NCBI RefSeq assembly: GCF_000739615.1 | Contig: NZ_BATP01000032.1 | Location: 1 to 64,000, forward strand | DNA: 64,000 nt | Reading direction: 5' to 3' | Source of the DNA: Haloferula sp. BvORR071 | Lineage (GTDB): Bacteria; Verrucomicrobiota; Verrucomicrobiia; Verrucomicrobiales; Akkermansiaceae | In this document: one piece after another, positions 2,743-37,564 of the stretch | Layout: every line of letters starts with the position of its first letter | Position numbering within the stretch: position 1 is the first letter of the stretch | Translations under genes and position numbers: made by a program | Notes under the pieces: model-generated | Database searches by the model: none | What the model was told of the DNA's origin: nothing | The model's input: the letters and a program-made list of their open reading frames with translations, nothing else

Positions 2743-2793
2743 GGTGCCTGGAGGAGTAGTTTTGGAAATGGAACTTGGCTTCTGTCCCTCACT

Positions 2794-2940: not shown

Positions 2941-3274
2941 GGTGCCGAGGGGGTGAACCCGGGTGAGATAACTCAGCGGGCATTAGCGCGGTGACGAGAT
3001 AACACAGTCGTTAGAAAGCGAAAGTCCGAAACGCCGCAGCGGGGAGCGGGTCGCGACCCTTGAAGGGGCAGAGGACAGCGCAGATGTAGGCGCGGGAAGG
3101 ATTGCGGCCCTCACCATGCGCCCCGACGTAACGATATTTTCACCGAATCTTCACGGCCGTAGCCCGCTAAAGTCGGGGAAAGGCCCACCTGACCGGCCGC
3201 CCCGCCTTCGGGCTTTTTACTTAATATCCCATGAATGTCGGAGAAGCTTGCGGTTTTTTTAAAAAACCCCGATA
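2941..3274. other. Intergenic region between divergent genes
   Basis: No convincing gene is seen in these 334 bp. Two exact copies of GAGATAAC (2965-2972 and 2996-3003) lie 31 bp apart, about three helical turns, upstream of the minus-strand remnant. A short CCCG-CCTT-CGGG hairpin followed by CTTTTTA (about 3201-3218) resembles a small plus-strand terminator, but no plus-strand gene precedes it. An AT-rich TTTTTTTAAAAAA tract sits about 10 bp before the next start codon. An unrecognised small RNA cannot be excluded. Confidence 0.3.
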
Positions 3275-4672
3275 ATGCCGCGCATCGAAGCGCAAGAGGC
3301 AAAAAAGGCGGCCAACCCCTACCGACAGATCCTGCGCCGGCGTGTGCCGGAGCCGGTGCTGGCGCTTTTGATGTTCCTCATGGGGGTGTGGCTTTGGGAC
3401 AACCACTTTGCGCAACGCCCGGCAGATGAGCCCCGCTATGGGGAGGAATCCTGCCGGATGGCGCTGATCAAGATCGACCGCGACCTGCGGATTGCGGAGT
3501 CCACCACGGATTTCCCGCCGCTGGTCCGGGCGGCTTTGGGAATCCATGACCTGAAGGCGACCTTGGATACCTCGGTCCACTCCTTGGCTACGCTCGGGAC
3601 CGAGAATGCGCTGGATGTGGAAGGCGGCTATGCCCTCGCGATTCTCAACGCGATCCGCCAGGATCAGGATCCCGTGATGGGTCCTTTTGTGGATCCGCGG
3701 CTGCCGGGCCCGCCCGACCCGCGAATCATCATCGCACGGGTGGCAGATGGCCGCGATAGCTGGTGGGACCGCCGTTATCTGGTCGCTTTCGGCAACCGCG
3801 GAGCGACCGAGATCGGGCTGAAGCCGGAGACGGCGGAGGAAGACTCACGCAACCGCGAGCTGGTGCTGCGGGCGACAGTGGCGCGCGGGATGGTCTGGGT
3901 TTTCGCCGGGGTGGGCCTGCTCTTCCTGCCGCGGACTTTGGCGGCCTTCGGGCGGGCGATGAGGTCGCGGACCGGCGGCTATGTCGGGCGCTGGCCGATG
4001 GGGGTGGGGCTGGCCATTTTCTTCCTCGCCTACCTGGCCTCGATCGGTTTCCAGATGGTGCTGAACGGCGTCATTTCCGGCCAGATCACCGGGCAGGTCA
4101 TCTACCTCGAGCCGCCGGTGCTAGCGGTCCTGGATGCGGCTACCCGGCTGCTGCCCGCGCTGGTCGCCTTGGGCTTCCTGTTCCGCAAGGGCGGCCATGC
4201 CACCGGCCGCCTCGGACTCTTTGCGAAGCCAGACCTGTTCCTGATCTTGGGCACCTTCGCGCTGCTCACCGGCGTCGACTACGCGCTGAAATACCTCCTC
4301 GCAAACAAGATCCAACTCGATCCTACCGGCGGTCTGAGCGGCGAGGAAGCAGGCTGGTGGGGCTTGGGCCTGGCGCTGATTTCGGCCTGCCTGGCAGCTC
4401 CGGTGGCAGAGGAAATCCTCTACCGCGGAGTCCTGTTCCGCTCGCTGGCCAACAAGCTGCGGGTGCCCGCCGCCACCCTGTTTTCAGCTCTGGTCTTCGC
4501 GCTCGTGCACTTCTACGATGAGTATGGCCTGCTCTCGGTCGGCTTCGTCGGCATCGCCTGCGCCCTCTGCTTCGCGGCGACGGGCAATCTGGCGACGGCG
4601 ATCATGCTGCACGTGCTCTACAATTTCGCGATCAAGGTGCCGGAGTGGATCGTGTACCACGCGCCGCTGTAA
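3275..4672 (+). CDS. CPBP family intramembrane metalloprotease
   Basis: This 465-aa membrane protein has an N-terminal transmembrane helix (about residues 25-45), an extramembrane region of about 150 residues, then a bundle of helices. The C-terminal part carries the CPBP/CAAX-protease-like signature: EEILYRG (near residue 378, the EExxxR motif), FALVHF (FxxxH) and HVLYNF (HxxxN). In the family these residues coordinate the catalytic zinc and place the glutamate base. Bacterial members process membrane peptides or act in stress and immunity to bacteriocins; the substrate here cannot be told. A kinase gene follows after 65 bp in the same direction, so co-transcription is possible. The ATG start has no clear Shine-Dalgarno sequence. 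Confidence 0.85.
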   Translation: MPRIEAQEAKKAANPYRQILRRRVPEPVLALLMFLMGVWLWDNHFAQRPADEPRYGEESCRMALIKIDRDLRIAESTTDFPPLVRAALGIHDLKATLDTSVHSLATLGTENALDVEGGYALAILNAIRQDQDPVMGPFVDPRLPGPPDPRIIIARVADGRDSWWDRRYLVAFGNRGATEIGLKPETAEEDSRNRELVLRATVARGMVWVFAGVGLLFLPRTLAAFGRAMRSRTGGYVGRWPMGVGLAIFFLAYLASIGFQMVLNGVISGQITGQVIYLEPPVLAVLDAATRLLPALVALGFLFRKGGHATGRLGLFAKPDLFLILGTFALLTGVDYALKYLLANKIQLDPTGGLSGEEAGWWGLGLALISACLAAPVAEEILYRGVLFRSLANKLRVPAATLFSALVFALVHFYDEYGLLSVGFVGIACALCFAATGNLATAIMLHVLYNFAIKVPEWIVYHAPL

Positions 4673-8873: not shown

Positions 8874-9124
8874 AAAGCTATCTTTTGTAGCGCTGATGAT
8901 AGCAAAACCCGCGCCCCCGCCGGGAGGCGAGGGGAGTCCGCTGTTCGATGAACTTTACGTGAAAATTACCGTCGCGCGCCAAGAAATCGTGTTCGGCGGT
9001 GTCTAAGTAAGGGTCGTCCGCAAAACTTCATGAATATTGCGGGGTTATGCATCGTTACGAATTTGCGGCATTTGTTCCAATCGCCAATCCCCGGGTTTCT
9101 TGTTAAGTCGCCACACGTTTTTCC

Positions 9125-12100
9125 ATGAGTGCAGAATCGTTTGAAGCTCCCTCCTTCGAGCTCCTGGCCGAGTTGCTTCCGGCCTATGACTTCGAGGCTT
9201 TCATTGCCCAAGGCGGCATGGGTGCCGTCTACAAGGCGCGGCAGCGCAGCCTTGATCGCGACGTCGCGATCAAGATCCTGCCCCGCGAACTCGGGGAGGA
9301 TCCTGAGTTCCACCTGTCTTTCGAGACCGAGGCGAAGGCGATGGCCCGCCTCAATCACCCGAACCTGATCGGCGTGTATGACTACGGCGACGTGGACGGC
9401 ATGCCGTACATCGTCATGGAGTTCGTGAACGGCAAATCGCTGTTCCACTCCGCCTACAACATGCAGGTGGACCCGGTGCAGGCGGTCACGATCGTGAAGG
9501 GGATCTGCGATGGTCTGGCCCACGCCCACGAAAACGGCGTGATCCACCGCGACATCAAGCCCGCGAACATCCTGCTCAATGAGAAGGTGGTGCCGAAGAT
9601 CGGTGACTTCGGTCTGGCACGCCCGGCCGATGTGGCGGGCTCCGGCGTGGTCATGGGCACGCCCGGCTACGTAGCCCCGGAGGTGCTGACCCACCCGGAA
9701 AAGGCGGACCGCCGCTCCGATCTCTTTGCCCTCGGCGTGGTGCTCTATGAGCTGCTGATCGGGCGCTGCCCGCCCTTCAACAACTACCAGCCGCCGGCCT
9801 CGACCGTCTGCGGCTGTGACGTCGCCCTCGACCGCATCTGCGACAAGGCGATGCATCCGAACGCCGCGCTGCGCTATCAGAGCGCGGAACAGATGTCCGC
9901 GGATCTTGAGGCGTGGCTGCGCAAGGCGTCCGCGCCTGCAGCGGCCGCTCATGCTTACGCGCCGCCGGCTGGCCCGCCGCGCCGTCCCGCGGGGATGCGC
10001 AAGGTCGCGGGTGCCGCTCCCGCGCGCCAGCAGTATTCCGCTTCGAACAGCGGTGGCTCGGGTGGCATGGCCAAGGGCCTGCTGATGCTGGCCGCCGCGA
10101 TTGCGATTGGCGCGATCGGCTGGTCGAAGTTCCAGGCGGGTGAGAAGGCAAAGGAGGAAGCCGCCGCCAAGGCCCAGGCGGATGCCCGCAAGCAAGCCGC
10201 CGATCAAGTGGCCAAGGACGCCAGCACCAAGACCCCGGACAAGGCAACGACTGGCAAGGGCGGCCTGCCGAATGCCAATGATGCCACGGCTTCAGGTGGT
10301 TCGCTCGAATCACTGGAGAAGCTGCGCTGGGATCTGGTCGCCGGTAAGCGCGAAAAAATGCCGGAAGGCACGGTGAAGCTGGGTGCGACCCACTTCATGG
10401 TGATTCCCACGCCGATGACTTGGCTCGCCGCGCAGGCCTTCGCCGAGAAACACGGGGCGCATCTCTTCGTCGCGGAGGATCAGAAGCAGCTTGAGCAGGT
10501 GTCGATGCTGACGCCCAACGCGGAAGCGGGTGCGGAGGCCGGCCTGTGGATCGGTGCCGGCAGTGCCGCTGACTCTTGGTCGTGGATTGACGGTGCCGCC
10601 TGGCACCTCGACGAAAAGCCGGAGGGCAAGGGTGCCTACGCGATCGTCGATGCGAAATCGGCGCTGCATGCCCGCGACGCAGCGGACCGCTATCCTTTCG
10701 CGATCCAGTGGGAAGCGGATGGGATGAATTCCGCGGCGCTGCCGCTGGTGCTTGGCCGGGTCGGGAAATCGATCGAGGATGGCAATCCGGTTTTCCCGCC
10801 GGGCACGATCGAATACAAGGGCCACTATGTCTTCCTCGCCATGGGGACGAGCAGCATCCAGAAGGCTGGCGAGATGGCCGGGAAAGCCGGCGGACATCTC
10901 ATCTTCCTCGATACCGAGGAGAAGACCCAATGGCTGGCCGACCACCTGCCGCAGGATGGCATCAAGGACGGTCTCTGGGCCGGGGCGGTGCGCCAGGATG
11001 ACAAGTGGGTCTGGATGAATGGCGAGGCGCTGGATTACACCCGCTGGCGGGATGAAGCCCAGCCCACCAATCATGGCGGCGTGCTGAAGATCGGCCCGAA
11101 CGGCGATTGGCTCAGCGCCTACTCCGGCGACCCGGCTTCCGGATTTGTGGTCGAATGGGATGTTGCTCCGGGCGATGACAAGGCGGATCCGGGCAAGCCG
11201 GAGAACGTGCCGGCGGCAGTGGCCGATCTGGAAAACAAGGCCAAGGAGTTGCTGGCGAAACTCGTCCAGGATCGCGACAAGGACCTTGCCACCAATGCCA
11301 AGACCTTCGCCTGGGACCTCGATGGCTGGCACAAGAATCTCAGCAAGAACGAGCAGTCCACCTGGAACCGCGATATCTCGATGCTCAAGGCGCTGGTGAA
11401 GGACAACCGCGTGCCCAACGGCGTGGACGCTGCCAGCGGCATCCGCCTGTCCCAGAACATGGCCAAGATCAGCGAATACAGCCTGGCCAAGCAGAAGACC
11501 ATCGATGCGGCTTTCGAAGGCAAGGCGGACAAGATCCGTACGCCCTATGCCACCCGCATGGCGGATCTTGCCAAGAAGCTGGCCAGCGATGGCGATGCCA
11601 AGGGTGCGAAGGTGGCGGAAGGCCGCGCCGCCGACGCTGCGAACCTCAAGGAGTGGCTGGACGCAATGCTTGGTGGCAGCAGCAAGGAAGAATCGGCGAA
11701 CAATCGCACCGCCAGCACGACCATTTCCTCTCTGTCCTCCGGCAAGTCCGGCGCCGTCGGCAACACTTCGATGGCCGGCCGTTGGGTCTGGATGTCCAAG
11801 GACATCGTGACCATCGAAGAGAGCGGCAAGGCCCAGGCTGAGAAGGCGGGGCACAAGGGCCGCTGGGTGGCAGTCGATGGCGACGATGCGCGCTACACCT
11901 TCACTTGGCAGAACGGCGAGTTCACCGAGACACTGACGCTCTCCTCCGATGGCATGGAAATGACCGGCAAGAACAACGTCGGCGACAAGGTCACCGCTTG
12001 GCGCATCGTCAAGGGCAAGGACCCGATCGTCGATGGCTGGGCGTGGAACCCGAGCTACTGCGTCTTCCGCGACGATCACACGGTCCGCAAGGGCAATGAC

Positions 12101-14692: not shown

Positions 14693-17600
14693 GTGCCCGC
14701 GAAGAAGTCCTCGTCCCCGCCCCCCGCCGCACCCGCCTCGATCCGTATCCGCGGTGCCCGTCAGCACAATCTGAAGGGGCTGGATCTCGATATTCCGCTG
14801 GGTCAGCTCACGGTGGTTACCGGGCCATCCGGTTCGGGCAAGTCCTCGCTGGCCTTCCACACGCTCTATGCCGAAGGGCAGCGGCGCTATGTGGAGACCT
14901 TCTCGCCGTACGTCCGGCAGTTCTTCGACCGCATGGACAAGCCGGTGGTCGATCACATCGATGGCATCCCGCCGGCGATCGCGATCGAGCAGAAGAACAA
15001 CATCCGCACCACGCGCTCCACGGTCGGCACCCTCACGGAGATCAATGACTACCTGAAGCTGCTCTACGCCCGCTCGGCCCGCGGCTATGACCCGGATACT
15101 GGTGAGGAGATCCGGCCGGATTCGCCGGAGTCCGCCGCCGCCTGGGCTTATGAGAATCTGCCGGGCGAGCAGATCCTGGTCACTTTCCCGGTCGCAATCC
15201 CTGCGGAGACCAAGAGCGAGGAGCTTTTCCCCTTCCTTCAGCAGCAGGGCTACCTCCGCGTGCTGGTGGGCGACGAGATCTACCGCACCGACGAGCAGCC
15301 AAAGGCCGAGATCTCCAAGCTTCGCTCCAAGATCGCCGTCATCCAAGACCGCCTGCCGGTGACCAAGGAGAACCGCAGCCGCCTGTTAGAGGCGCTGGAA
15401 CATGCCTTCACTCTAGGCAAGGGCCTCGTCTCGCTTTCCTACACGCCGAAGGCGAAGGGCAAGACCGCAGCGAAGTATGAGGCGCGGCTGTTCTCCTCGA
15501 CCTGGACGAACCCGCACACCGGCAATTCGCTGCGCGCGCCTTCGCCCGCGCTGTTCTCCTTCAACAATCCTCTCGGGGCTTGCCCGAAGTGCCGCGGCTT
15601 CGGCCGGGTCATCGGCTTGGACTTGGACCGCGCGGTGCCGGATCCCTCGCTGAGCATCCGGGGAGGCGTGATCAAGCCCTTCCAAGGCGAGCGCGGCGAG
15701 GAGTGCCAGCGCGACCTGCTGCGCTGCTGCAAGGAGCGCAAGGTCGACATCAACACCGCCTGGGAAGACCTCGACGAGGCCACCCGCGAGTGGATCTACT
15801 ACGGCGATCGTAATTTGCGCGACGCGAACGGCGGCTCCACCGTCGATCTGGAATCGCTCGAGGAGCTGTGGAAATCAGGCGGGTGGTATGGCGTGAAGGG
15901 CTTCTTCGATTGGCTGGAGACCAAGTCCTACAAGATGCACGTCCGCATCTTCCTCAGCCGTTACCGTTCCTACACCACCTGCGGCACTTGCCGCGGCCGC
16001 CGCCTGCAGCCGGAGGCGCTGTGCTTCAAGATCGATGACAAGACCCTGCCCGAGCTGTGGACCCTCCCGGTCTCGGATCTCCGCGCTTGGTTCACCGAGC
16101 AAACGCCCGCGATCCGCACGGCGGGAGGCCCACGCGGCGCGGCGGATGCCTCGCTCGACCTGATCCTCAGCGAGATCACAACGCGACTGCATTATCTGAA
16201 CGAAGTTGGACTTGGCTATCTCACTCTCGACCGCCCGGCGCGGACCTTGAGCGGTGGCGAAATCGAGCGTGTGAACCTCACCACCTGCCTCGGCGCCTCA
16301 CTGACGAATACGCTCTTTGTGCTCGATGAGCCGACCGTTGGTCTCCACGCACGCGACATCCACCGCTTGGTTGGCGTGATGCACGGCCTGCGCGACAAGG
16401 GCAACACTCTCGTCGTCGTGGAGCACGAGGAAGCGGTGATGCGTGCCGCGGATCAGCTTCTCGATATCGGGCCGGCTGCCGGAGAATATGGCGGCACCTT
16501 GGTGTTCCAGGGACCCGTCAACGAAGGTCGTGCGATCAAGCCGAAGAAAGGCCAGTCGGGCATCGGCACCTTGCCCTGGCTCAGCGGCGAGCGCTCGATC
16601 CCGCTGCCAGCCAAGCGTCGCGCGCCATCTTCCCGGAAGATCGAGATCCGCGGCGCCTCGCGCCACAATCTCAAGAAGCTCGATTTCGAGCTGCCGCTGG
16701 GAGTCTTCGCCTGCCTCACTGGCGTCTCCGGCTCGGGCAAGTCGACCCTCGCACACGACGTCCTCTACGCCAACCTCGCGCGCAAGTTGCGCAAGGATGA
16801 GTCGGACCTCGATCCGGCACCGGTCAAGGAACTACGGGGTACGCAGTACTTGAGCGATGTCCTGCTTGTCGACCAATCGCCGCTAGCCCGCACCCCGCGC
16901 TCTACTCCGGCGGTGCTGCTCGGTGCCTTCGATCCGATCCGCCAGCTCTTCGCCCAGACGGATGACGCCAAGGCGGGCGGTTTGAGTACCGGCTTCTTCT
17001 CCTTTAACTCCGGCGAAGGCCGCTGCGACCGCTGCGCCGGTGCCGGCAGCGAGAAGGTGGAGATGCAGTTCCTCTCGGACCTGCACGTGACCTGCCCGGA
17101 CTGCAACGGCCGCCGCTACAAGCCCTCGACACTCGACATCCACTACCTCGGCAAGTCGGTCGCCGACATCCTCGACCTTTCGATCAGCGAAGCCCTCGCC
17201 TTCTACGGCGAGACCGAGGGGCTGTCCTCGCCGCATGCCAAGCGCCACGATCAGATCTGCAGGCTGCTGGAGCCCATGGCTGAAGTCGGCCTCGGCTACC
17301 TCAAGCTCGGCCAGCCGCTGAACACGCTTTCCGGCGGTGAATCCCAACGCCTCAAGCTCTGCCAGCTCCTCGCCGAAGCGAAGGGCAAGGACAGCAGCAA
17401 GAAGGGCACCAAGCTGCTGATCCTCGACGAGCCGACCACCGGCCTGCACTTCTCGGACATCGAGCGTCTGTTAGGCGTGTTCCAGCGCTTGGTCGAGTCC
17501 GGCCACAGCCTGCTGGTGATCGAGCACAACCTCGACGTCATCAAGTGCGCCGACTGGATCATCGACCTCGGCCCCGAAGCGGGCGCCCAGGGCGGCCAGA

Positions 17601-20401
17601 TCGTCGGTCAAGGCACTCCGGAGCACATCGTTTCGCTCGGCACCGAGACCTCGCGCTACCTTGAGCCCCACATCAAGCCGAAGAGCGCAGCGACCACACG
17701 CCTCAAGGAAGAAGCCGTCGCCCGCCCGATTGCCAAGCAAGCGAATGTCATCGCCCTGCGCGGTGCCCGTGAGCACAACCTCAAGAACATCTCGATTGAT
17801 ATCCCGCGCGACCGCTTCGTGGTGGTCTCGGGGCTCAGCGGCTCGGGCAAATCCACCCTCGCTTTCGACATCCTGTTTGCCGAAGGCCAGCGGCGTTTCT
17901 TGGATTCGATGTCGGCCTACGCCCGCCAATTTGCTGAGCAACTGGAGAAGCCCGAACTCGACTCGCTCGCCGGCCTGCCGCCGACCGTGGCGATCGAGCA
18001 ACGCGTCTCGCAGGGCGGCATGAAGTCCACCGTCGCCACTGTCACGGAAGTCTGGAACTTCGTGCGCTTGCTATACGCCAAGCTCGGCACCCGCTACTGC
18101 CCGGATTGCGGCGTGCCGGTGGAGAAGCAATCGCTCGCCGCGATTGAAAAAAGCATCCGCGACCTCCTCAAGAAGGGCCCGGTCTCGATTCTCGCACCAG
18201 TGATCAAGGGCCGGAAAGGCTATCACACCGAGGTCGCCGAGTGGGCCCTCAAGCAGGGCTTCACCAAGCTACTAGTCGACAAACAATTCCGCGACGCCGA
18301 AGGCTTCACCCGCCTGGAGCGCTTCAAGGAACACGACATCGATGTCGTCGTCGCCGAGATCTCCAAAAAGGGCAGCGACCAATCGCTCGCCACCATCATC
18401 CCGCGCGCACTGGAGATCGGCAAAGGCACGCTGAAGCTCTTCACCCCGGACAAGAAGTTCGTGCTGCTCTCCAGCGAGGCGAGCTGCCCGAGCTGTCATC
18501 GATCCTTCGAGGAACTCGACCCGCGGCTCTTCTCCTTCAACTCGCCGCACGGCTGGTGCCCGGAGTGCCGCGGCCATGGCATGGTTCCGAAGCACCGCCA
18601 TCATCTCGATACCTCGCGTTACGAATCCGTTCTCGAAGCGGAGATGGATGCCGACCGCAAGATCGAGCGCATGGAGGACGAGGAACTCGTCGAATGTAAG
18701 GAATGCCACGGTGCGCGCCTCAATCCGGAAGGCCGCGCGGTGCGTTTCCAGGGCACACCTCTCCAGGATCTCGCCCGCCTGCCGGTGGAACATGCCTCCA
18801 CTCATTTCGACAAGCTCAAGATCAGCGGCGACCGCAATGCCCTGATCGCCCGCGACATCCTTCCGGAGATCAAGCAGCGCCTCGCCTTCCTGCAGGAGGT
18901 CGGTCTCGGCTATCTCCAGCTCGATCGCTCCGCGCGCACCCTGAGCGGCGGCGAGAGCCAACGCATCCGCCTCGCCGCCCAGCTCGGATCCAATCTCCGC
19001 GGCGTGCTCTACGTGCTGGATGAGCCAACCATCGGCCTCCATCCGCGCGACAATGCCGCTCTGTTAGAAACCCTGGTGGCCCTGCGCGACCGCGGCAACA
19101 GCCTCATCGTCGTCGAGCATGATGAAGACACGATTGCCCGTGCGGATCACCTGATCGACCTCGGGCCCGGGGCAGGCCGCCTCGGTGGCGAGGTTGTCTA
19201 TCAAGGGCTGCCGCCGCAGCTGCCTTCCGCGAATGGCAAGGGCAAGAAGGCCAAGGGCGCAGCGCCTGCCGAATACGAGAACTCGCCCACCTACCGCGCG
19301 CTCTCGCATCCGATCATTCACCCCAGCCGCGGCAGCCGCCGCGCGGTGCCGAAGAATCACCCGCTGCTGAAGGTGGAAGGCTGCCGCGCGAACAACCTCA
19401 AGTTCATCGACGTCAGCATTCCGCTCGGTCGCCTCACCGTGCTCACCGGCATTTCAGGCTCCGGCAAGTCGACGCTCATGCACTCCTGCATCGCCGATGC
19501 CGCACGGGCCAAGGACGCCAAGGCCGAGGGCAAGAAGAAGAGTTCGATCCGCAAATGGCGCTCGGCCTCGGGCTTCGACAAGCTGCAATCGATCTACGAG
19601 GTCGACCAATCGCCAATCGGCAAGACCTCGCGCTCCTGCCCGGCGACCTACGTGAAGGTCTTCGATGACATCCGCAAGCTCTTCGCCCAGCTCCCGGACT
19701 CGCGCGTGCGCGGCTACGAGGCCTCGCGCTTCTCCTTCAATACCGGCGATGGCCGCTGTCCCGTTTGTGAGGGCAATGGCCGCGTGAAGCTGGAGATGGA
19801 CTTCCTGCCCAGCACCTGGGTGCCCTGCGAGGCTTGCGCGGAAATGCGTTACAACCCCGCCACTCTCGAAGTGCGCTTCCGTGAGAAGAACATCGGCGAG
19901 GTGCTGCGCATGACCATCGAGCAAGCCGCTGAGTTCTTCGAATCTCAGCCGCGCATCGCCGCGCCGCTCAAGCTGCTGGCGGACACTGGCCTCGGCTACC
20001 TGCAGCTCGGCCAACCTTCACCCACCTTGAGTGGCGGCGAGGCCCAGCGCATCAAGCTGGTGACTGAGCTCACCAAGGGCCGCGTCTCCACGAAGAACCT
20101 CAAGACCCTCATCCGCGCCAATCTCTACCTCATCGAGGAACCGACCGTCGGCCTCCACCTTGAAGACGTGAAGCGCCTGATCGACGTGCTCCATCGCTTG
20201 GTTGATGAAGGCCACACGGTCATCGTCATCGAGCACCACATGGCCGTCGCCGCCGAGGCCGACTGGATCCTCGACATGGGACCGGAGGCCGGCGACCAAG
20301 GCGGCACCGTTGTGGCGGAAGGTTCACCGGAGACTGTGGTGAAGTCAAAGAAGTCGCGCACCGCGCCCTTCCTGGCGGCGGCCTTGGCGATCAAGTCATG
20401 A
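14693..20401 (+). CDS. uvrA: Double-length UvrA-family excinuclease ATPase
   Basis: This 1902-aa protein is two UvrA-like halves in one frame, each about 900-1000 aa with two ATP-binding cassettes. Four Walker A motifs are visible (GPSGSGKSS at about residue 44, [27 protein letters not shown]) and four LSGGE signatures. The Walker B motifs read [30 protein letters not shown] and [10 protein letters not shown]; the fourth has Glu where Asp is normal. Zinc-binding CxxC pairs occur in both halves (CPKC, CGTC, CDRC, CPDC, CPEC, CKEC, CPVC, CEAC). UvrA dimers recognise damaged DNA for nucleotide excision repair; fused double proteins mimic the dimer within one chain and occur in several phyla next to, or instead of, normal UvrA. 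Translation appears to start with GTG. It is a single gene with no uvrB nearby. Confidence 0.93.
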
Positions 20402-27295: not shown

Positions 27296-28078
27296 TTACT
27301 TCACGGCCAGCAGGCTGATCCGCTGCCAGACCCAGCGCACCGGACCATCCTCTGTCTCAAGCTCCATCGCCTCGCGCACATGCGGGCTGGCGGTCCGGAT
27401 CAGCTCCCGGACCTGCTCACGGTTCTCCTCGGTGGTAGCCGCCGCCTCGAAGTACCACTCCAAGTTGGGCTGCTTCATCGGCTCCAGCTCGGCCCGCAAT
27501 AATTCAAACCCGGCCTCCTCAATGATCCGCGACCAAGTCGGCCGGTCGAGCAGGCGGCCATGCGAGGGATCGCGGAACTTCTCCACCTGGTGCAGCCACT
27601 CGGCGGTTTCCGGATCGTCGTCCGGTAGGCTGCCATCGATGATCATCAGGTAGCCACCCGGCTCGAGCACCCGATGGGCCTCCTGAACGAAACCCGGCAC
27701 ATCACTGAAATGGTGGGGTGCCACCCGGCAGGAGACGAGACGGAAGCTGGCATCGGGGAAAGGAATCTCCTCCGCCGGAAAGAGCGCGGTCTCGGCCTGG
27801 ACGCCGTCTCCGGCGAGCAAGGCCTTGGCATGTTCCAGCATCGCGGGGGCCAGGTCGCCCAAAACCGGCTGGTAGCCGGCCTTGGCCAGGGCCAAGGCGG
27901 TGTGACCGCCACCGGTGGCCACATCCAGGACCTTTCCATGCCGGTTCGGGAGCGGAATCAGGTCAATCAGGGCCTCGACGTCGCGGGTATCGGCCAGGAT
28001 GTGCTTTTTCCCGTAGTTGGCCGCCTGCCGGTCGAATTGGGCGGCGGAACGTTGCTGCTGCGAATCGAGTGCTGCCAT
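27296..28078 (-). CDS. Class I SAM-dependent methyltransferase (UbiE-like)
   Basis: The ATG at 28078 gives 260 aa (MAALDSQQQRSAAQFDRQA...). Motif I is 'VLDVATGGGHTALALA' (SAM-binding glycine-rich loop), with 'FRLVSCRVAPHHFSDVPGFVQEAHRVLEPGGYLMIID' as the family's motif II/III region. The fold matches the Methyltransf_11/UbiE group, which methylates small molecules; the substrate is not evident. It diverges from the halogenase gene with about 118 bp between starts, so a shared control region is possible. Pairing with a halogenase makes a tailoring role on an aromatic metabolite conceivable, but this is speculation. Longer frames upstream would overlap the halogenase control region. Confidence 0.82.
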   Translation of the reverse strand: MAALDSQQQRSAAQFDRQAANYGKKHILADTRDVEALIDLIPLPNRHGKVLDVATGGGHTALALAKAGYQPVLGDLAPAMLEHAKALLAGDGVQAETALFPAEEIPFPDASFRLVSCRVAPHHFSDVPGFVQEAHRVLEPGGYLMIIDGSLPDDDPETAEWLHQVEKFRDPSHGRLLDRPTWSRIIEEAGFELLRAELEPMKQPNLEWYFEAAATTEENREQVRELIRTASPHVREAMELETEDGPVRWVWQRISLLAVK

Positions 28079-28196: not shown

Positions 28197-29720
28197 ATGG
28201 TCTCTCACTCGGAAAACCCATCCGCCGCCCCCGCAGGGGTCCAACGCGTGCTCGTCCTCGGTGGCGGCAGCGCCGGACTGCTCGCCGCGCTCACCCTGAA
28301 GCGCCTGCAACCGAACCTCGAGGTCTCGCTGGTTTACAGCTCGGAGATCGGCGTCATCGGGGTGGGTGAGGGGACCACCGCCGCCTTCCCGGCTCACATC
28401 TTTGACACTCTGGGGATTCCCAAGGAGGAGTTCTATGCGGGTGCCCAGCCGACCTGGAAGCAGGGCCTCCGTTTGCTGTGGGGACCGCGCGAGGATTTCT
28501 TCTACGACTTCGAGTTCCAGTATGACCAGCGCTTCGAGGGGATGCCGAAGGCCAATGGCTTCTATGCCGCGGGCGATTGCCATGACCTCTCTCAGGCCGG
28601 TGCGCTCATGGCGCGCGAGAAGGCCTTCACCACCGGTCCGCTCGGCAAGCCCGTGATCAAGGGCCAGTATGCCTTCCACATCGAGAACCACCGTCTGGTC
28701 TCCTGTTTGGAGGATGTCGCCAAGCGCTATGGCGTCAGCTTGGAAGACGATACCTTGGATCGCGTGGAGACCGCTGATGGCAAGGTGACCGCACTGCACT
28801 TCAAGAGTGGTGCCACCCGCACGGCGGACCTGTATGTGGATGCCTCCGGTTTCCGCGCCGAGTTGATTGGCAAGGCGCTGCAGGAGCCCTTCATCAGCTA
28901 CAAGGGTTCGCTGTTCTGCGACCGCGCGGTGATCGGCGACTGGCAGCGCGAGGATGAGCCGATCCTGCCTTACACCACCGCAGAGACCTACGATCACGGC
29001 TGGTGCTGGCAGATCGAGCACGAGAACTTCATCAACCGCGGCTATGTCTATGCGAGCGAGTTCGTCTCCGATGACGAGGCACGCGCCGAGTTCCTGGCGA
29101 AGAACCCCAAGATCACGGGCGAGACCCGCGTGGTGAATTTCGGCAGCGGCCGCTACGAGCGGAGCTGGGTGGGCAATGTGGTGGCGATCGGCAATGCCTC
29201 CGGCTTTGTCGAGCCGCTGGAAGCGACCGCCTTGGCGCAAGTCGTCTTCGAATGCCGCTGGCTGGCGGAGTCACTGCGCCAGACCGGCTCGAAGCTCGAT
29301 GAGACGATGATCGCGGGCTTCAACCGGGTGACCGCAATTGCCTGGGATGAGATCCGCGACTTCCTCGCTTACCACTACAAGTTCAATACGCGGCTCGACA
29401 CGCCCTTCTGGAAGCACTGCCGGGAGAACACGAGTCTCGGCAACTACGCGGAACTGCACCGCCTCTACACCGAGGTGGGTCCGAACCCGATGCTGCTGGT
29501 CCAAGCCTTGCCCGCACGCCCGAACATTTACGGCGTGGAAGGCTTCCTCGCCATGCTGGTGGGCATGCAGGTGCCACACTACGCGCCGCATTTGTTCTCG
29601 CCGGAAGAGTTCGCCGGCTTCCAGCGCCACCGCGACAAGCTCGCCGCGCAGGCCAAGGCCGGCGTGAGCGTCCGCCAGGCGCTCGATGCGATCCGCCGCC
29701 CGTCCTGGCAATGGACCTGA
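28197..29720 (+). CDS. Flavin-dependent tryptophan-halogenase family protein
   Basis: This 507-aa protein (ATG 28197) has the FAD-binding GGGSAG loop at about residues 22-27, 'GVGEGTT' near 55-61, and Lys88 in 'PTWKQG', the position of the catalytic lysine that carries the chloramine/HOCl in family enzymes. The halogenase signature WxWxIP appears as WCWQIE (269-274), with the final proline replaced. Glu342 in 'GFVEPLEAT' corresponds to the catalytic glutamate of tryptophan halogenases. It is therefore probably catalytically competent, though substrate and regiochemistry cannot be read from sequence. The partner flavin reductase is not in the window. A degenerate paralogue follows after 22 bp, and the two are likely co-transcribed. 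Confidence 0.85.
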   Translation: MVSHSENPSAAPAGVQRVLVLGGGSAGLLAALTLKRLQPNLEVSLVYSSEIGVIGVGEGTTAAFPAHIFDTLGIPKEEFYAGAQPTWKQGLRLLWGPREDFFYDFEFQYDQRFEGMPKANGFYAAGDCHDLSQAGALMAREKAFTTGPLGKPVIKGQYAFHIENHRLVSCLEDVAKRYGVSLEDDTLDRVETADGKVTALHFKSGATRTADLYVDASGFRAELIGKALQEPFISYKGSLFCDRAVIGDWQREDEPILPYTTAETYDHGWCWQIEHENFINRGYVYASEFVSDDEARAEFLAKNPKITGETRVVNFGSGRYERSWVGNVVAIGNASGFVEPLEATALAQVVFECRWLAESLRQTGSKLDETMIAGFNRVTAIAWDEIRDFLAYHYKFNTRLDTPFWKHCRENTSLGNYAELHRLYTEVGPNPMLLVQALPARPNIYGVEGFLAMLVGMQVPHYAPHLFSPEEFAGFQRHRDKLAAQAKAGVSVRQALDAIRRPSWQWT

Positions 29721-29742
29721 ACCCCTTTCCTGCTACAAGCCC

Positions 29743-31251
29743 ATGAAAACCTCTCCCGTCCGTCAGGTCGTCGTCGCCGGCTCCGGCACCGATGCGCTGC
29801 TTACTGCCGCCACCCTCAAGCGCCAGCTTCCCGGCCTGGCGGTCATCCTGGTGAGTGAGCCCGGCGAAAGCGCTCCCGATCCCGCCGGCGAAAGTACGAC
29901 GCCTGCCGTAATTCAGCAGCTCTGCGCCGTGCTCGGCCTGCAGGGCTCGGACCTCCACAACCATGTCCGGCCGGTCTGGACTTTGGGTTACAAGTGTCTC
30001 TGGGGCGAGCGCGGCAGCTTCTACCGTTCCTTCGACCAGACCTTCAGCCAGGGCATTGCCGGCTTTTCCATCGAGCCGGGATTCCTGGCGGCGGAAAGCG
30101 GGATGGACCTCTGCACGGTGCCGATCGCGCTGATGGCGGCGGGCAAGCTCTTCCCCAAGGATGGCGCAAATGCTTTCAAGCCGCTCGAGCACCTCACTGG
30201 CTTCAACTTCCGGATGGAGCTGCTGGATGGCCTGCTGCTGCGGGCCTGCCAGGCACTGGGCGTCACCATCCGGCCGGTCAAGGTGACTTCCTTCGACCGC
30301 AGCGAAAGCAAGCTGGGCTTCGATGACGGCACCGCGATCATCGCGGATCTCTTCGTGGATGCGGGCGGCAGCGCCCGACCGCTGGCCAGGCTGGCGGGCA
30401 ACAGCGACTGGATCTCCTACGCGGATGCCGCGCCCTGCACGCGGGCCGTGACCCTGCGCCGCCGCCGCGGCAGCGAGCCGATCCGTCCCTACACCACCTT
30501 GGAGACTCAGGACTGCGGCTGGCGCTGGCGCACCGAGCACGACGACTCAATCGGTATGGGTCTGGCCTTCCATCCCGACTACATCAGCGAGGATGAGGCG
30601 ATCGCCCAACTGCTCGCCAAGGCCGGCGACGCCACGCTGGGGCCACAGGTGTTGCATTGGAATTCCGGCCGCTTGGGCAAGGCTTGGGACGGGCCGGTGC
30701 TCGCCATCGGCGATGCCGGCGGCTTCCTGCCGCCCATGGCCTCGCTGCGCATGGGCCTGCTAGGGCTGCAGATCAACTGGCTGATGCGCCTGCTAGCGGA
30801 GACCGACGGTCATGTCGGCGAGGCCTGCCAGACCAACTACAACAAGGTGGTGGGCGAGGCCTGGGACGAGTGCCGCGATTTCCACGCGGTGCACTATGAA
30901 TTCAACACCGCTTCCGACTCCGCCTTCTGGCAGATGGCGCGTGCCACCGCAAAGCCGCACTCTTGTGCCGCGCTGGTGGATCTCTACCAGGGCATCGGAC
31001 CGACGAATTTGCTTTCGAACTTCCTGCCCGCGTGGCCTGGGGCTGTTGGCATCGACTCGTGGATTGGCGCTCTTCTCGGCTTGGGCGTGCCCTTCCGGCG
31101 TCATCCGGAGATCCCAGCTGAGGAGAAGAAGGTGTGGCAGTCGATCTGCGATCAGCGCCGCGTGCTCGCCAAGCAAGCGGTAGCACCGGAGCTCTGCATC
31201 GGCGCGGCGCGGCGATCCATGAAGCCGGAGCCGCGGGTGCCGTTTCCGTGA
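29743..31251 (+). CDS. Halogenase-like protein lacking catalytic residues
   Basis: This 502-aa protein is a paralogue of the preceding halogenase over its whole length. Gap-free alignment around the active site puts Thr80 ('PVWTLG') at the catalytic lysine position, and Ala333 ('GFLPPMASL') at the catalytic glutamate position. The FAD loop is GSGTDA rather than GGGSAG, and WxWxI reads WRWRT. The frame is intact and full length, so it looks selected rather than decaying. It may be a substrate-binding or regulatory partner of the active enzyme, or a flavoprotein with another reaction. The family assignment is firm; halogenation by this protein is unlikely. Confidence 0.8.
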   Translation: MKTSPVRQVVVAGSGTDALLTAATLKRQLPGLAVILVSEPGESAPDPAGESTTPAVIQQLCAVLGLQGSDLHNHVRPVWTLGYKCLWGERGSFYRSFDQTFSQGIAGFSIEPGFLAAESGMDLCTVPIALMAAGKLFPKDGANAFKPLEHLTGFNFRMELLDGLLLRACQALGVTIRPVKVTSFDRSESKLGFDDGTAIIADLFVDAGGSARPLARLAGNSDWISYADAAPCTRAVTLRRRRGSEPIRPYTTLETQDCGWRWRTEHDDSIGMGLAFHPDYISEDEAIAQLLAKAGDATLGPQVLHWNSGRLGKAWDGPVLAIGDAGGFLPPMASLRMGLLGLQINWLMRLLAETDGHVGEACQTNYNKVVGEAWDECRDFHAVHYEFNTASDSAFWQMARATAKPHSCAALVDLYQGIGPTNLLSNFLPAWPGAVGIDSWIGALLGLGVPFRRHPEIPAEEKKVWQSICDQRRVLAKQAVAPELCIGAARRSMKPEPRVPFP

Positions 31252-31260
31252 GCGAACGGC

Positions 31261-31521
31261 TTGGCCTACCTCTGGAAATACCTCCCGGATGACTTCTCCT
31301 TCGGGGATTTCTCCGTGACCCGCACTCGGATTCATATTGTGTGCTTCCTGCTGGTCCTGGCGGGAAGTTCGGCCTTCAACGGCTGGCTGATTGCCTCCAC
31401 GGAAGGCCCGGAGGGTGGGCGCAGAGCCCTCATGATCTGGGCGACGGTTGGAAACCTGCTGATCCAGTCGCTGCTCGCGGTCATCATCTACCAGACTTAT
31501 CTCTTCATTCTTTGGATTTAG
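31261..31521 (+). CDS. Small membrane protein downstream of halogenases
   Basis: This 86-aa frame has two hydrophobic segments ('IHIVCFLLVLAGSSAFNGWLIA' and the C-terminal stretch from 'WATVGNLLIQ'), typical of a two-span membrane protein. The start is uncertain: TTG at 31261 is the only early initiator in frame, 9 bp after the halogenase-like stop. Tight spacing and strong third-position GC support coding. I do not recognise the family. Co-transcription with the halogenases suggests a possible envelope anchor or exporter subunit, as inference only. Confidence 0.55.
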   Translation: MAYLWKYLPDDFSFGDFSVTRTRIHIVCFLLVLAGSSAFNGWLIASTEGPEGGRRALMIWATVGNLLIQSLLAVIIYQTYLFILWI

Positions 31522-31615: not shown

Positions 31616-31996
31616 ATGGAGATCAATCCGAGGGAAATGGACGAGCCCTATCGTCCTGAGCATCGTGGGCCTGCGGTTACGGCCCGGCGTTGGTTTGTCT
31701 ACATGCCGATGGTGGTCCCGGGAATCGCCGCGGCGGGGCTGTACTGGGGCTTCAACGGTGGTTTTCCGCCACTACCGCTTTCCGCCACGGTCTCCGCGAT
31801 CGTGTTCCTGGTGGTCTTTTTCCTGCTCTTTGTCTTCTGTTGCCTCTTCGTCGGTTGGGTGGCGAGTTGCGACTCGGATCCGGCTTGGCGCAAGCAACAC
31901 TGGAGCGATGCGGCGATGATAGCGGGGATCCTGCAGCTGGTGATCACCCCGGTCGTGGCGGGGCTGCTGATCGCTTTCTTCCTGCCGAAGCCTTGA
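31616..31996 (+). CDS. Hypothetical membrane protein, three predicted spans
   Basis: This 126-aa protein begins MEINPREMDEPY, with hydrophobic segments at about residues 25-50, 55-85 and 100-122 separated by a charged loop ('CDSDPAWRKQHWSD'). No known domain is evident. It follows the other small membrane gene by 94 bp and precedes alanine racemase by 40 bp on the same strand. The ATG is preceded by AAGG, a usable ribosome binding site. Confidence 0.6.
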   Translation: MEINPREMDEPYRPEHRGPAVTARRWFVYMPMVVPGIAAAGLYWGFNGGFPPLPLSATVSAIVFLVVFFLLFVFCCLFVGWVASCDSDPAWRKQHWSDAAMIAGILQLVITPVVAGLLIAFFLPKP

Positions 31997-33250: not shown

Positions 33251-36200
33251 TCAAGGAGTAACGTTCACGCGCAAGAAGCCCTTCGAAGGCAGGCCGTTCG
33301 AGCCGTTCAGGCTGAAAGTGCGATACTCGTATCCGGCGGGTGCGACCGGCAGGCCGGTGGTCACCGGAGTCGGAACCACGCTCACCGGATCGTTGAAGCC
33401 GTTGAGCAGCAGGCTGCCTTGGATGGTGTAGGTGTAACCGTTCTGGGTCGCCGTCGTCGGGGTGCCGGTGAAGGCCGGGGTGCCTTGCAGCACCGCGATC
33501 GTCAGCAGGCTCTCGCGATTGGTGTCGCCATCCACATCGCTGTCAGCAGCGAGCGGATAGACGCGCGCATTCGCAGCACCGTTGTTCGGCGTGCCACCGA
33601 GCGCGTATTCGACCGAGTTCGATTGGCCATCGCCATCCGGATCGGCGGTGGGGCCGACGATGTTCTGATCAGTGACACCGGGGAAGAAGCCGGCGATCCA
33701 GTTCTGGAACGGCGTGCCCACCGCGGTGATCTCGATGCTGGTGGGATTGTATTTCACCGTGGTGCCAGCCGGGACCGAGGCGAAGGTGCCGATGCGGTTG
33801 TTGAAGGTGGCAATCGTGTAAGGCAACTGAGTGGCCACCCCGGTCAGATTCACGACCAAGGAGACACCCGTGAGGTTCAGAGTACCTGCCGTCAACGTAT
33901 CGTTGGGGGGTGTCTGGGCATCATTAATGTCAATGACCAGGCTGGAGCCTGGATTCATCGTCAGGCCGCCAATCGCCGCCAGCTGACCGGTGGTCTGGCC
34001 CGCTTCGACGCGGCCCGGATTGATCGCACCGCTTACAGTGAGATTACCGCCAATGGTGCCGTTGCCGCCGATGGTGGCACCAGTGGCCACTGTCACGTTG
34101 CCTGTTGCGAGCGAAAGGTCGCCGTTCACAGCCAGCGTGCCTTGGTTCACCAGGGTCGGGCCGGTGTAGAAGCTAGCCGAGTTGAGCGACAAGCTGCCTG
34201 CACCGGTCTTGGTGAGCGAGCCCGCGGTATTCGCCGCGAGGGTCGGTGCCACGGTGGACAAGTTCGAACCCGCACCGCCGCCGATGATGTTCAGCGTCGG
34301 AGCCGAAGTGTAATCGACGCCCGGATTGGTCACGGTGATGCTGGTGACGGCACCGCCGGAGATATTGGCGATCGCCGTGGCACCGGTGCCGCCGCCGCCG
34401 GTAAGCTCGATGTACGGCGGAGCGAGGTAGCCGAAGCCACCATTGAGGACCGGGATGGTGGCCACACCGCTGCCGGTGGGATCGTCGAAGGTCTGAGTGC
34501 TGCCGATGGCGAAGCCATTCGTGTCGATGATCGCGCCTTCCGAGTAGATGTAAGCGCGGTCGACGTTGTTCATGAACTCCGCCTGGTCTCCCCGTGCGCG
34601 GAGCGTGCCGCCGTGGAAGTTGAACACGCCTTGAGCATCGGCAGTGGTGCCTCCCTGATTGATGAGCTGCGTGCTCAGGACGCCGCCCGTCATCAAGTTG
34701 ACGATGCCATTACCGATCCCTTCGTTGGTGGACCCCACCAGCAGACCGCCGGTCAAGTTGACCGTGCCGCCATTGCGGATGTTCAGGTTGGCGTTGCCGC
34801 TTTCACCGACGATCAGGCGGATGCCGCCGCCTTGGGTCTGATTCACCACACCACCGGCGCGGACATCGAGAAGACCACGGCTTCTGGAGATAGTGCCGTC
34901 CACGTAGCGGGCAATCACCGGGAAGCCCCCGTTGAAGTTGGCGGTGGCGTTCTCCACTTCCATGACGCCGGTACCGAAGGCACCGATCTGGAAGTTGCCG
35001 CTGCTGTTCAGCACGCCGCCGGTCATCCGGAGCGCGCCCCATGCGCCGGCGCCTCCGGCATTCGCACCGCCGATGCGGCTGTCGGAGCCACCCGCGCGAT
35101 CGACCAAAGTGCCGCCGGTCTGGACGATGACGCCCGAGGTGCCGACACTCTTGCCGGCGAAGATGGCAGTGCCATCCACGGTGCCATTGCTCAGGAGCAG
35201 GTTGCTGAAGCCAGCCTGCACGTCGCCGACGTTGAAGTCGCCGGTGACCCAGGAAGTGTTGGCCTGATCCATGACCAGGCTGCCTTCGATGGCAGTGAAG
35301 AAGCCATTGTTCACCGTGCCGTGGTTGATCACCGTGGAGACGGTGCTCACATTGATCTGGCCGCTCGTGGTGATGGTGCCGGTGGTCGTCACCGGGCCGG
35401 TGCCGATGAAGCGGGTAAGGCCAGGGCCGGTGATATTCGCGGCCACCGTGCTAGCGTTGGAGCGATTGAAGACCAAGGTGCCCTCATCCGTCATGGTCAC
35501 AGTGCCAGTGCCAAGGCTGCCCGTGGTGCCGCCAATGCCGATGCTGAGGACACCGCCGCTGAGGGCGATATTACCCGCATAGGCGGAGTTGTCACCGGTC
35601 AGGTTGATCGCACCGAAGCCGCCCTTCGCGAGGTTGCCCGCGCCGGAGATGGTTCCGGAGAGGGTCAACGCGTTGGCCGAGTTGGTGTTGGCAAGCTCGG
35701 TATTGGAGACCAAGGCGAGCGGCGCGGAGATCTCATTCGCGGCGCTGTTGGACGATTGATTGAGCGAGGCCGAGAAGCCGGTGCCTGCATTCATCTCCAG
35801 CACACCACCGGTGCCGGCAGTGACCGTGAACTTGTTGGAACCATCGGTGTCGCCCAAGGTCAGCGCACCTACGGTGATCGTAGTATTGAGCGGGACCGTC
35901 TGATCGCCGGTGATGTTGCTGACGAGGTTGGCGAAGACGCCGGTGGCATCCGGGAAGCTGGTGCCGGGATCCCAGTTGTCCTGGCCACCCGCGTTGTTGA
36001 AGGCGAAGGTGCCGCCTGCGGTGGGGACCCAAGTGAAGGAGTCCGCCGTGCCAGCGAGATTCAGCGAGTCGGGGCCTGCCACGGTGTTGCCGCGGATCTG
36101 GCTTTCGGTGAGCGTGTAGTTGTAGACGCGGAACTCATTGATGGTGCCTTGCCAGCCGTTGTCGGAACCATACTCGGAACGGCCGAGCCAGTTGTTGACG

Positions 36201-37564
36201 TCCTCGATGCTGCTCGGGCCCTGCGTTTCCGGCAGGGTCTCCATTAGGTAGCCGTTGCGGTAGATGCGCCACTCCTTAAAGTCGGGATCGAAGACCACGA
36301 CGTGGTGGAGCTGGGTGTTGAGCACCGTGGCACCTTCCGAGATGCGCACGGCAGCGCCGTTGCTCATCGTGCCGCCGAGGCGTTCAAGGCGGTAGTCGGG
36401 ATTCACATCGGAGTTCGCGAAGACGGAGATGTCCTCAGCACCGTTGAACCCGGGAGTGTTCCCCGCGGTATTCACTTCCCCGATGGTGGAGTTACTGAAG
36501 CTCATCAGGCGGCTCCAGGCTTGTGTCCCAGTCTGGGTGGAGAAGATCTCGATGCTGACGCGCTGGTTCTTCGAGATCAGGCCGTTTGGCAAGTCCACGT
36601 AGGCGGGCAGCGTGGCGGCGGCCCCGCCAGGCAGGGTGATGCCAGTACCGGTGAAGGTGGCACCGTTGCCTTTGATCACGCCAGTCAGGCCACCGAGGCT
36701 GTCTTTTACGACCGAACCTTCCGGAGCCGCACCAGCAGCCTCGCTGAAGGACCAGCGGTGGATCGGCGGGCGCGGCAGGGTGGAGGCGACGACACCGGGA
36801 TGGGCGCCGACTTCCAGGTTGTAGTTGTTGAGCACCTGCGCGTCCGTCAATGCGCCGCTGTGGATGCGGACCTTGCTGATCGCTCCGGAGAACTGGAAGA
36901 AGCGGCCGGCGTCGTCGCCGTTGTTATTGCGCTCGGTGCCGATCCAGATCGGGAATCCGTCTTTGGCGTCCAAGCTGGCGGCTTCGGAAGCATTGAGTAC
37001 GCCGTCCACGTAGATGCGCTGGGTCGTGCCGTCATAGGTCACCACGATATGGTGCCACTGGCCGGCGGCGGGAGCTCCACCCGCAAAGCCCATATCGGGC
37101 GGACCCCAACGGGCAGCCGCACCGAAGTCGGGATTGGTGGCATAGCGGAAGCCGGCAAAAGTGCCGTTCGGACCTTCGCGACGGCTCCAGGAGAGCACCG
37201 CTTCTTCCGGGCGGATCTGGCCTTGGAAGGCCCAGTATTCCACCGAGTGCGTTGCATTCGCGCCGTGCAGGGCGGCAGTGGTGTTCGGGCCTTGGAGATA
37301 GTCACCATCGCCATCCAGCACGAGGGCGAGCTTGCCGCCGATGGTCTCGAGTTGGGGCGTGCCAGTGGCCTGCTTGGCAAAGCTGCCCTGAATCCCGGTC
37401 AAGGAGTGCTGGGGCCAAATGCCATCAGTCGTGTTGTAGTCCGCTGCGTCGAGGTCAATGAGCAGCGAGCCAGCTACGTCGATTGCGGAAGCACAGGTGC
37501 TCAGGCAGCCGACCATGAAGGCGGCGCGCACGAGCGCACCGCGAACGGTATTTCTGGATCTCAT
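33251..37564 (-). CDS. Large exported LamG and autotransporter-repeat protein
   Basis: This 1437-aa protein has a signal peptide (MRSRNTVRGALVRAAFMVGCLSTCASA). Two LamG/concanavalin-like domains follow (about residues 30-255 and 270-495), recognised by 'GQWHHIVVTYDGTTQRIYVDG' and 'INEFRVYNYTLTESQIRGN'. Residues about 540-1270 form a Gly/Thr/Asn-rich beta-helix with autotransporter-associated units such as 'GAGNLAKGGFGAINLTGDNSAY' and 'GSLTKTGAGSLSLN'. The last 160 residues, with 'WIAGFFPG', 'DPDGDGQSNSVEYALGG' and a final beta domain, are a Verrucomicrobia-typical secreted C-terminus. A classic autotransporter barrel is absent, so export beyond the inner membrane uses another route. It is probably a surface adhesin or glycan-binding protein. 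Confidence 0.85.
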   Translation of the reverse strand: MRSRNTVRGALVRAAFMVGCLSTCASAIDVAGSLLIDLDAADYNTTDGIWPQHSLTGIQGSFAKQATGTPQLETIGGKLALVLDGDGDYLQGPNTTAALHGANATHSVEYWAFQGQIRPEEAVLSWSRREGPNGTFAGFRYATNPDFGAAARWGPPDMGFAGGAPAAGQWHHIVVTYDGTTQRIYVDGVLNASEAASLDAKDGFPIWIGTERNNNGDDAGRFFQFSGAISKVRIHSGALTDAQVLNNYNLEVGAHPGVVASTLPRPPIHRWSFSEAAGAAPEGSVVKDSLGGLTGVIKGNGATFTGTGITLPGGAAATLPAYVDLPNGLISKNQRVSIEIFSTQTGTQAWSRLMSFSNSTIGEVNTAGNTPGFNGAEDISVFANSDVNPDYRLERLGGTMSNGAAVRISEGATVLNTQLHHVVVFDPDFKEWRIYRNGYLMETLPETQGPSSIEDVNNWLGRSEYGSDNGWQGTINEFRVYNYTLTESQIRGNTVAGPDSLNLAGTADSFTWVPTAGGTFAFNNAGGQDNWDPGTSFPDATGVFANLVSNITGDQTVPLNTTITVGALTLGDTDGSNKFTVTAGTGGVLEMNAGTGFSASLNQSSNSAANEISAPLALVSNTELANTNSANALTLSGTISGAGNLAKGGFGAINLTGDNSAYAGNIALSGGVLSIGIGGTTGSLGTGTVTMTDEGTLVFNRSNASTVAANITGPGLTRFIGTGPVTTTGTITTSGQINVSTVSTVINHGTVNNGFFTAIEGSLVMDQANTSWVTGDFNVGDVQAGFSNLLLSNGTVDGTAIFAGKSVGTSGVIVQTGGTLVDRAGGSDSRIGGANAGGAGAWGALRMTGGVLNSSGNFQIGAFGTGVMEVENATANFNGGFPVIARYVDGTISRSRGLLDVRAGGVVNQTQGGGIRLIVGESGNANLNIRNGGTVNLTGGLLVGSTNEGIGNGIVNLMTGGVLSTQLINQGGTTADAQGVFNFHGGTLRARGDQAEFMNNVDRAYIYSEGAIIDTNGFAIGSTQTFDDPTGSGVATIPVLNGGFGYLAPPYIELTGGGGTGATAIANISGGAVTSITVTNPGVDYTSAPTLNIIGGGAGSNLSTVAPTLAANTAGSLTKTGAGSLSLNSASFYTGPTLVNQGTLAVNGDLSLATGNVTVATGATIGGNGTIGGNLTVSGAINPGRVEAGQTTGQLAAIGGLTMNPGSSLVIDINDAQTPPNDTLTAGTLNLTGVSLVVNLTGVATQLPYTIATFNNRIGTFASVPAGTTVKYNPTSIEITAVGTPFQNWIAGFFPGVTDQNIVGPTADPDGDGQSNSVEYALGGTPNNGAANARVYPLAADSDVDGDTNRESLLTIAVLQGTPAFTGTPTTATQNGYTYTIQGSLLLNGFNDPVSVVPTPVTTGLPVAPAGYEYRTFSLNGSNGLPSKGFLRVNVTP

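Follow-up and report, generated by a model that had tools for sequence, protein, structure and literature searches.

A tandem pair of halogenase genes

We analyzed a 64,000-nt stretch of Haloferula sp. BvORR071 (contig NZ_BATP01000032.1, positions 1 to 64,000; hereafter the window) that carries two halogenase-like genes in tandem: a first gene, "A" (28197-29720, + strand, 507 amino acids, aa), which is a homologue of flavin-dependent halogenases (FDHs) with the catalytic set of that enzyme class, and a second, downstream gene, "B" (29743-31251, + strand, 502 aa), a paralogue in which this set is altered. The two genes lie 22 nt apart on the same strand, and would be expected to share one transcript. 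Both proteins belong to Pfam family PF04820 (Trp_halogenase), scoring 327 bits (A) and 211 bits (B) over nearly their full length where the curated cut-off is 21 bits, and are ~34% identical to each other.

An earlier note, made from the letters of this DNA alone, had read both frames as intact and had placed Lys88 of A opposite Thr80 of B and Glu342 of A opposite Ala333 of B, which the frames and the alignment confirm. It had also described a changed flavin adenine dinucleotide (FAD) loop and WxWxI motif in B; these we find as AGSGTDA (vs. LGGGSAG in A) and GWRWRTEH (vs. GWCWQIEH), with both motif Trp retained in B and their surroundings changed. By sequence, A has the full set of FDH hallmarks, i.e., the catalytic Lys and Glu, a GxGxxG FAD loop (GGGSAG) and the WxWxI motif (GWCWQI), whereas B lacks the Lys, the Glu and the GxGxxG loop and retains the FDH fold in its predicted structure. 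We take the catalytic Glu to be that of the EPLE[AS]T stretch, corresponding to Glu346 of PrnA. Structure 2jkc in the PDB is titled 'E346D of Tryptophan 7-Halogenase (PrnA)'. Lys and Glu both matter in this enzyme class (PMC8269204; for Lys also PMC7336383), and the W-motif of A has Glu where the published WxWxIP form has Pro (PMC7336383).

AlphaFold2 models (13 sequences each) reached predicted local distance difference test (pLDDT) values of 90.8 for A and 90.6 for B, the last 9 residues of B being of low confidence. The peptide halogenase MibH (5uao) is the best structural match in the PDB for A (Z 44.7) and for B (Z 42.8, root-mean-square deviation 2.2 over 476 residues; tied with Xcc4156 at 42.1), with other FDHs next in both cases, and it is also the best solved match by sequence (A: 280 bits, 36% identity over 481 residues; B: 135 bits, 26% over 476). 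B is thus predicted to be a whole FDH fold with a disabled centre, and no fragment. Invariant positions are more numerous in B than in A at the C-terminal end and less numerous elsewhere: the last 43 aligned columns hold 22 invariant positions in B vs. 10 in A, and the other 447 columns 158 vs. 270 (Fisher p 0.0006, nine genomes; the 43-column block was chosen after its pattern had been seen).

Distribution of the pair

We used a profile built from 10 B proteins to search 18 genomes of the genus, which includes Luteolibacter marinus (strain NBU1238, G288), Haloferula rosea (KCTC 22201, G109) and H. luteola (YC6886, G183) besides the genome of the window (G000). A B-type protein was found in 14 of these 18 genomes at 641-855 bits, the best A-type protein reaching 378 bits. 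Each of these 14 B genes is immediately preceded, on its own strand, by an A-type gene, and B starts about -10 to +23 nt from where A ends (starts estimated from alignment). The search for the same pair in relatives, proposed in the earlier note, therefore returned a constant order of A then B in every B-bearing genome. The four remaining genomes have one A-type gene (G126), three (G293), none (G247), or only a weak 19.6-bit match in an assembly that is 61% complete (G292).

Beyond the genus, no B was detected in the remaining 242 genomes of the family (family search of 260 genomes, 18 of them of the genus), nor among 286 genomes sampled from the class or 387 sampled from the phylum; these samples overlap, and 3 to 5 candidates per genome were scored in these larger searches. 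The family match table (at most five candidates scored per genome, read by eye) likewise contained no other directly adjacent full-length FDH pair outside the genus. When contigs were scanned, B alone as query recovered no relative, and the alignment as query recovered seven loci, four of them with B. The window genome holds two more tandem FAD-dependent halogenase-like genes (L052, contig C46, 1374-2684 and 2402-4246), which are nearer to CmlS/LodB-type models; their scores against halo_ClmS (193 and 113 bits) do not reach its cut-off, and an antiporter gene and a complete FDH come after them.

Catalytic residues across relatives

The residue losses of B were followed in an alignment of 49 proteins, comprising 35 A-type proteins (14 paired and 21 unpaired, the latter a sample) and the 14 B. 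The catalytic Lys is present in all 35 A-type proteins and in none of the B, which carry Thr (10 proteins) or Asn, Leu, Cys or Ser (one each); the catalytic Glu is present in 33 of the 35 A-type proteins and again in no B (6 Ala, 6 Ser, 2 Thr). Given these counts, the Thr and Ala of the window B are not chance substitutions. With regard to their conservation, which the earlier note had proposed to check, Lys and Glu are consistently absent, and the letters at the two sites vary. Among paired A, Lys is found in 14/14 and Glu in 12/14, such that 12 of the 14 pairs consist of a complete FDH and a Lys-less partner, and in the other two A is without Glu as well.

The dinucleotide loop is changed as consistently. 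All 14 B have Asp at the position of Ala26 of A and Ala or Pro for the third Gly of the loop, and the second Gly is also gone in G109 and G183. More broadly, among 71 columns in which 32 A rows show no variation (the atypical A rows of G183 and G288 and of the third gene of G393 being left out of this count), the B proteins lose 26 to 38, the A of L. marinus 13 and the A of H. luteola 30. Conversely, 59 columns are invariant in the 14 B, and the letters at four of these occur in no A row. The charge difference between Glu358 of A and Arg349 of B was considered as a marker of an interface and not adopted, as its place in the dimer could not be located.

Two further observations concern these proteins. 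A Trp-x-Trp motif near the C-terminus (29706-29714 in the window, at the end of A) is present in 27 of the 35 A-type proteins and in no B. In another family of the class, three tandem FDH genes (L071, contig C6 of G393, 7397-12031) all carry Lys and Glu, so that a tandem position alone does not predict residue loss.

Descent and selection

In the tree, B forms one clade (100/100) on a long stem (1.74). Four groups are common to the A and B trees (G000 with G064; G117, G146 and G265; G289, G290 and G291; G123 with G240), and G109 and G183 pair up in the B tree only, the placement of the A of G183 being unsure; the B tree thus largely mirrors the A tree. Distances within A and within B are correlated (0.90 over 66 pairs from 12 genomes with G183 and G288 dropped, 0.65 over 91 pairs from all 14), a correlation that linkage and shared species descent alone can also produce.

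The ratio of non-synonymous to synonymous substitutions (dN/dS, Nei-Gojobori) is 0.11-0.29 for B and 0.12-0.26 for A across eight species pairs (species shared between pairs), and hence B, for which the earlier note had suggested this comparison, is not decaying and evolves under a constraint like that of A. Its frame is open in all 14 genomes, with a stop in G240 a few codons before the matched stretch ends. B is therefore an old duplicate within the FDH family whose integrity purifying selection has preserved. The faster divergence of B between distant species (36% identity vs. 63% for A between G000 and G123) might raise the suspicion of a decaying duplicate or of an oddity of one lineage, but such an origin is hardly credible: we reject it on the open frames, the conserved residue losses and the dN/dS values, to which the single clade on its long stem can be added. 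The pseudoenzyme that the earlier note had seen in B thus stands as a conserved and selectively maintained protein found only beside an A-type gene (14/14); relatives with Lys and Glu in the second gene, or its free decay, which the note had named as counter-evidence, did not turn up.

Genomic neighborhood

Around the pair, a VOC-family gene of the window is shared with five close relatives (G064, G100, G117, G146 and G265), and the neighbor on the other side, a 365-aa open reading frame (ORF) which we take to encode an alanine racemase, with four of these (G064, G117, G146 and G265, not G100). The neighbors differ in G109, G123, G183 and G240, which makes the A/B pair the stable part of the locus. 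The earlier note had placed the pair in a halogenation system that included two small membrane proteins and a divergent methyltransferase. That system fares poorly for the methyltransferase, a divergently transcribed S-adenosylmethionine-dependent protein (Methyltransf_11; 27296-28078, - strand) which, for all 25 NCBIfam models among the matches listed, scores below the curated cut-off: it neighbors only 4 of the 14 pairs, a methyltransferase-like gene being found at three of the other 13 pair loci (G064, G100 and G290; the G288 locus spans only 9 kb). It fares no better for the first small protein, an 86-aa ORF with two hydrophobic segments between B and the next gene (31261-31521, + strand), which is not a conserved part, with a similar ORF in 0/13 of the same loci (E-value 1e-3). 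On this recurrence we rejected both as members of a system.

The second small protein, C (31616-31996, + strand; three hydrophobic segments), did hold up, as an optional part of the unit. In 7 of the 14 pairs (G000, G064, G100, G109, G117, G265 and G288), B is followed at a distance of at most 400 nt by a small protein with three or four hydrophobic segments, the 86-aa ORF being interposed in the window; relatives of C also occur elsewhere in G123, G240 and G247, and extra copies in G064, G100, G117 and G288. The closeness of C to B, which includes G109 with its otherwise different neighbors, could suggest that B works independently of A, with which it would share no more than a transcript, and forms a homomeric protein for binding or regulation, perhaps together with C. 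We consider this very unlikely, as B is always found beside A and the A-B distances correlate, with the reservation on linkage and shared descent made above. None of the 13 neighboring proteins scanned with Pfam is a flavin reductase, and one PF01613 gene lies elsewhere in the genome (contig C33).

Two large ORFs elsewhere in the window deserve mention. The first (14693-20401, + strand) encodes a UvrA of 1902 aa in which the UvrA unit is repeated in tandem: three stretches match UvrA models, and there are two UvrA interaction domains. It is probably a known large form, since NCBIfam holds a double-length UvrA model (PRK00635, 1809 positions). The second (33251-37564, - strand; 1437 aa) contains repeated Gly/Thr/Asn-rich stretches and has, by eye, the appearance of a large surface protein that is secreted; part of it is matched at 27% by a 293-aa ORF (L055, 8688-9569) that neighbors an unpaired A-type gene.

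A putative two-subunit halogenase

We read B as a conserved pseudo-halogenase and most likely the FAD-poor partner subunit of A in a putative complex. As an explanation of the whole locus, we lean, with some reserve, towards an A-B heteromer in which A works and B is catalytically silent. A and B would associate in the way that FDHs form homodimers. A, as the working subunit, would receive FADH2 from a reductase acting in trans, oxidize halide to hypohalous acid (HOX) and, guided by the Lys, halogenate a substrate that is indole- or Trp-like and perhaps a peptide; B would stabilize A or the dimer interface, or present and gate the substrate. In favor of this count the constant place of B close behind an A-type gene within the genus, the uniform residue losses, the single B clade with subgroups that recur in A, the correlated A-B distances, the low dN/dS, the retained FDH fold and the excess of invariant positions at the C-terminal end of B. 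The altered flavin loop of B next to a complete A would amount to a fixed division of labor between an FAD chain and a substrate chain.

Work on other FDHs offers a structural frame for such an arrangement. One crystal dimer is common to FDHs (PMC7336383); the substrate-binding loop of Thal lies at the dimer interface (PMC6863734), the pyramidal subdomains of AbeH are nested together in the dimer, and in BorH, FAD and Trp are found on different chains (both PMC11840605). FAD and substrate also seem to disfavor each other within one chain (PMC6863734, PMC11840605), and a pair in which one chain has a broken flavin site would separate the two by construction.

Several points weigh against an active A with a silent, FAD-poor B. 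The contact between A and B is one that we infer, and FDHs can be monomers in solution, as reported for Xcc4156 and Thal by size-exclusion chromatography (SEC) and dynamic light scattering (PMC7336383) and for AbeH by SEC (PMC11840605). The A-type genes nearest to the paired ones (G077, G225 and G255) stand without another FDH gene over the surrounding 15-16 kb, and A-type proteins can therefore do without B. No recurrent biosynthetic neighborhood that would name a substrate was found around the pairs. B keeps Gly49-Glu50 of the second FAD segment (10 rows) as well as both motif Trp, and may by its sequence retain FAD binding. Ala for the third Gly is also found in an unpaired A-type protein with Lys and Glu (a Rubripirellula contig, L085), as well as in the paired A of L. 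marinus, and this change alone is weak evidence against FAD binding.

These last features, together with the retained FDH fold, would fit a B that is re-purposed and not dead, i.e., one that binds flavin and catalyzes another reaction (e.g., an oxidation or oxygenation) that precedes or follows the action of A on the same substrate. Invariant residues of its own (D17, G271, A275, W306, D324, R336, R349 and W440, each found in at most 2 of the 35 A-type rows) point the same way, as does a match to the QhpG monooxygenase model, which A and B share and which lies far under its cut-off. However, the loop with Asp and without the third Gly in every B (the second being gone in two) speaks against it, and so does the range of letters at the former Lys site (Thr, Asn, Leu, Cys or Ser) and Glu site (Ala, Ser or Thr), which is unlike a new active site there; we thus regard a re-purposed B as unlikely.

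A simple active-plus-dead model is strained by 2 of the 14 pairs, in which the paired A itself is without Glu (Val in H. luteola, Ala in L. marinus) and its FAD loop is altered too. The catalysis of A is thus not always what keeps the pair. Both genes lie on long branches (1.97 and 0.55). In the tree with B rows, the A of H. luteola joins B, a placement flagged as long branches meeting, and that of L. marinus stays in its species group; once the B rows are left out, the two group with each other and are separated from the remaining 32 rows at 90/94, and the B tree places the two genomes apart. Glu may have been lost in one event or in two. The second FAD segment of both proteins (L067, G288, 2577-4097; L045, G183, 7104-8717) carries the same Pro-Asp change, which may reflect a single event or convergence.

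One way to read these two genomes is that the whole pair is no longer a halogenase and is kept for binding or regulation, the residues of A persisting in the other 12 pairs by short history or for another flavin reaction. The loss of Glu from A while B stays would be consistent with this, as would the open frames and a dN/dS of 0.24 for A between G288 and G100. Yet paired A keep Lys in every genome and Glu in all but these two, whose long branches look like departures from a catalytic norm, and we therefore find a general loss of halogenation quite unlikely. Persistence of the pair where A is probably inactive instead argues against a simple activator role of B in all genomes and for repurposing in these two, where the complex has probably taken on another role.

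The A-B heteromer can be drawn more sharply, as a possibility that we advance tentatively: a two-subunit FDH of the Trp_halogenase family in which the crystal homodimer has been replaced by an obligate heterodimer. Here A would bind flavin and make HOX, and an FAD-free B would hold or deliver the substrate (a protein, a peptide or a molecule linked to the membrane, C serving as anchor). Both subunits would be catalytically defective in L. marinus and H. luteola, where a complex derived from an FDH would then serve a purpose other than halogenation. If A needs B, a search for substrates in which only the annotated halogenase is expressed could come up empty, and the dimer of FDH crystals, so far without clear purpose, would gain a testable role. 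The pair is also a natural series of pseudoenzyme evolution, which includes the two genomes with a Glu-less A.

Comparison with known systems

In the open-licence literature, we found nothing joining a halogenase with a pseudoenzyme, or Luteolibacter with a halogenase; a candidate precedent for a halogenase heterodimer (PMC12715798) was set aside, as the heterodimer described there is a protease. Among solved structures, MibH is the closest to both A and B. It is the tryptophan 5-halogenase of the lanthipeptide NAI-107, a catalytically complete peptide halogenase; no lanthipeptide genes were recognized among the 13 Pfam-scanned neighbors here. For the role proposed for B, the S-adenosylmethionine decarboxylase (AdoMetDC) prozyme (PMC5201418) and deoxyhypusine synthase (PMC3663545) are comparable in that an inactive paralogue complexes with, and activates, the other subunit. 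These belong to other enzyme families and to trypanosomes, and activation was measured there, whereas here we infer it.

The nearest likeness is Ams8/Ams9 of armeniaspirol biosynthesis, an FDH/pseudo-FDH heterodimer predicted in June 2026 (PMC13311259), and the idea of such a heterodimer is thus already published. As in A/B, a halogenase-like protein without the conserved Lys (Asn90) is predicted to form a heterodimer with, and to support, a complete FDH, and according to the same text the Lys-less partner has a residue placed to block FAD; a deletion study cited there found that loss of ams8 abolished the product. Ams8/Ams9 are compared with PltA, an FDH acting on carrier-bound pyrrole, and sit in the gene cluster of one known product (PMC13311259), whereas A/B belong to the Trp_halogenase family and occur genus-wide; the two systems are likened by description. 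What is new here is a family within Trp_halogenase that spans a genus and whose members, as far as found, all lack the Lys, the Glu and a canonical FAD loop.

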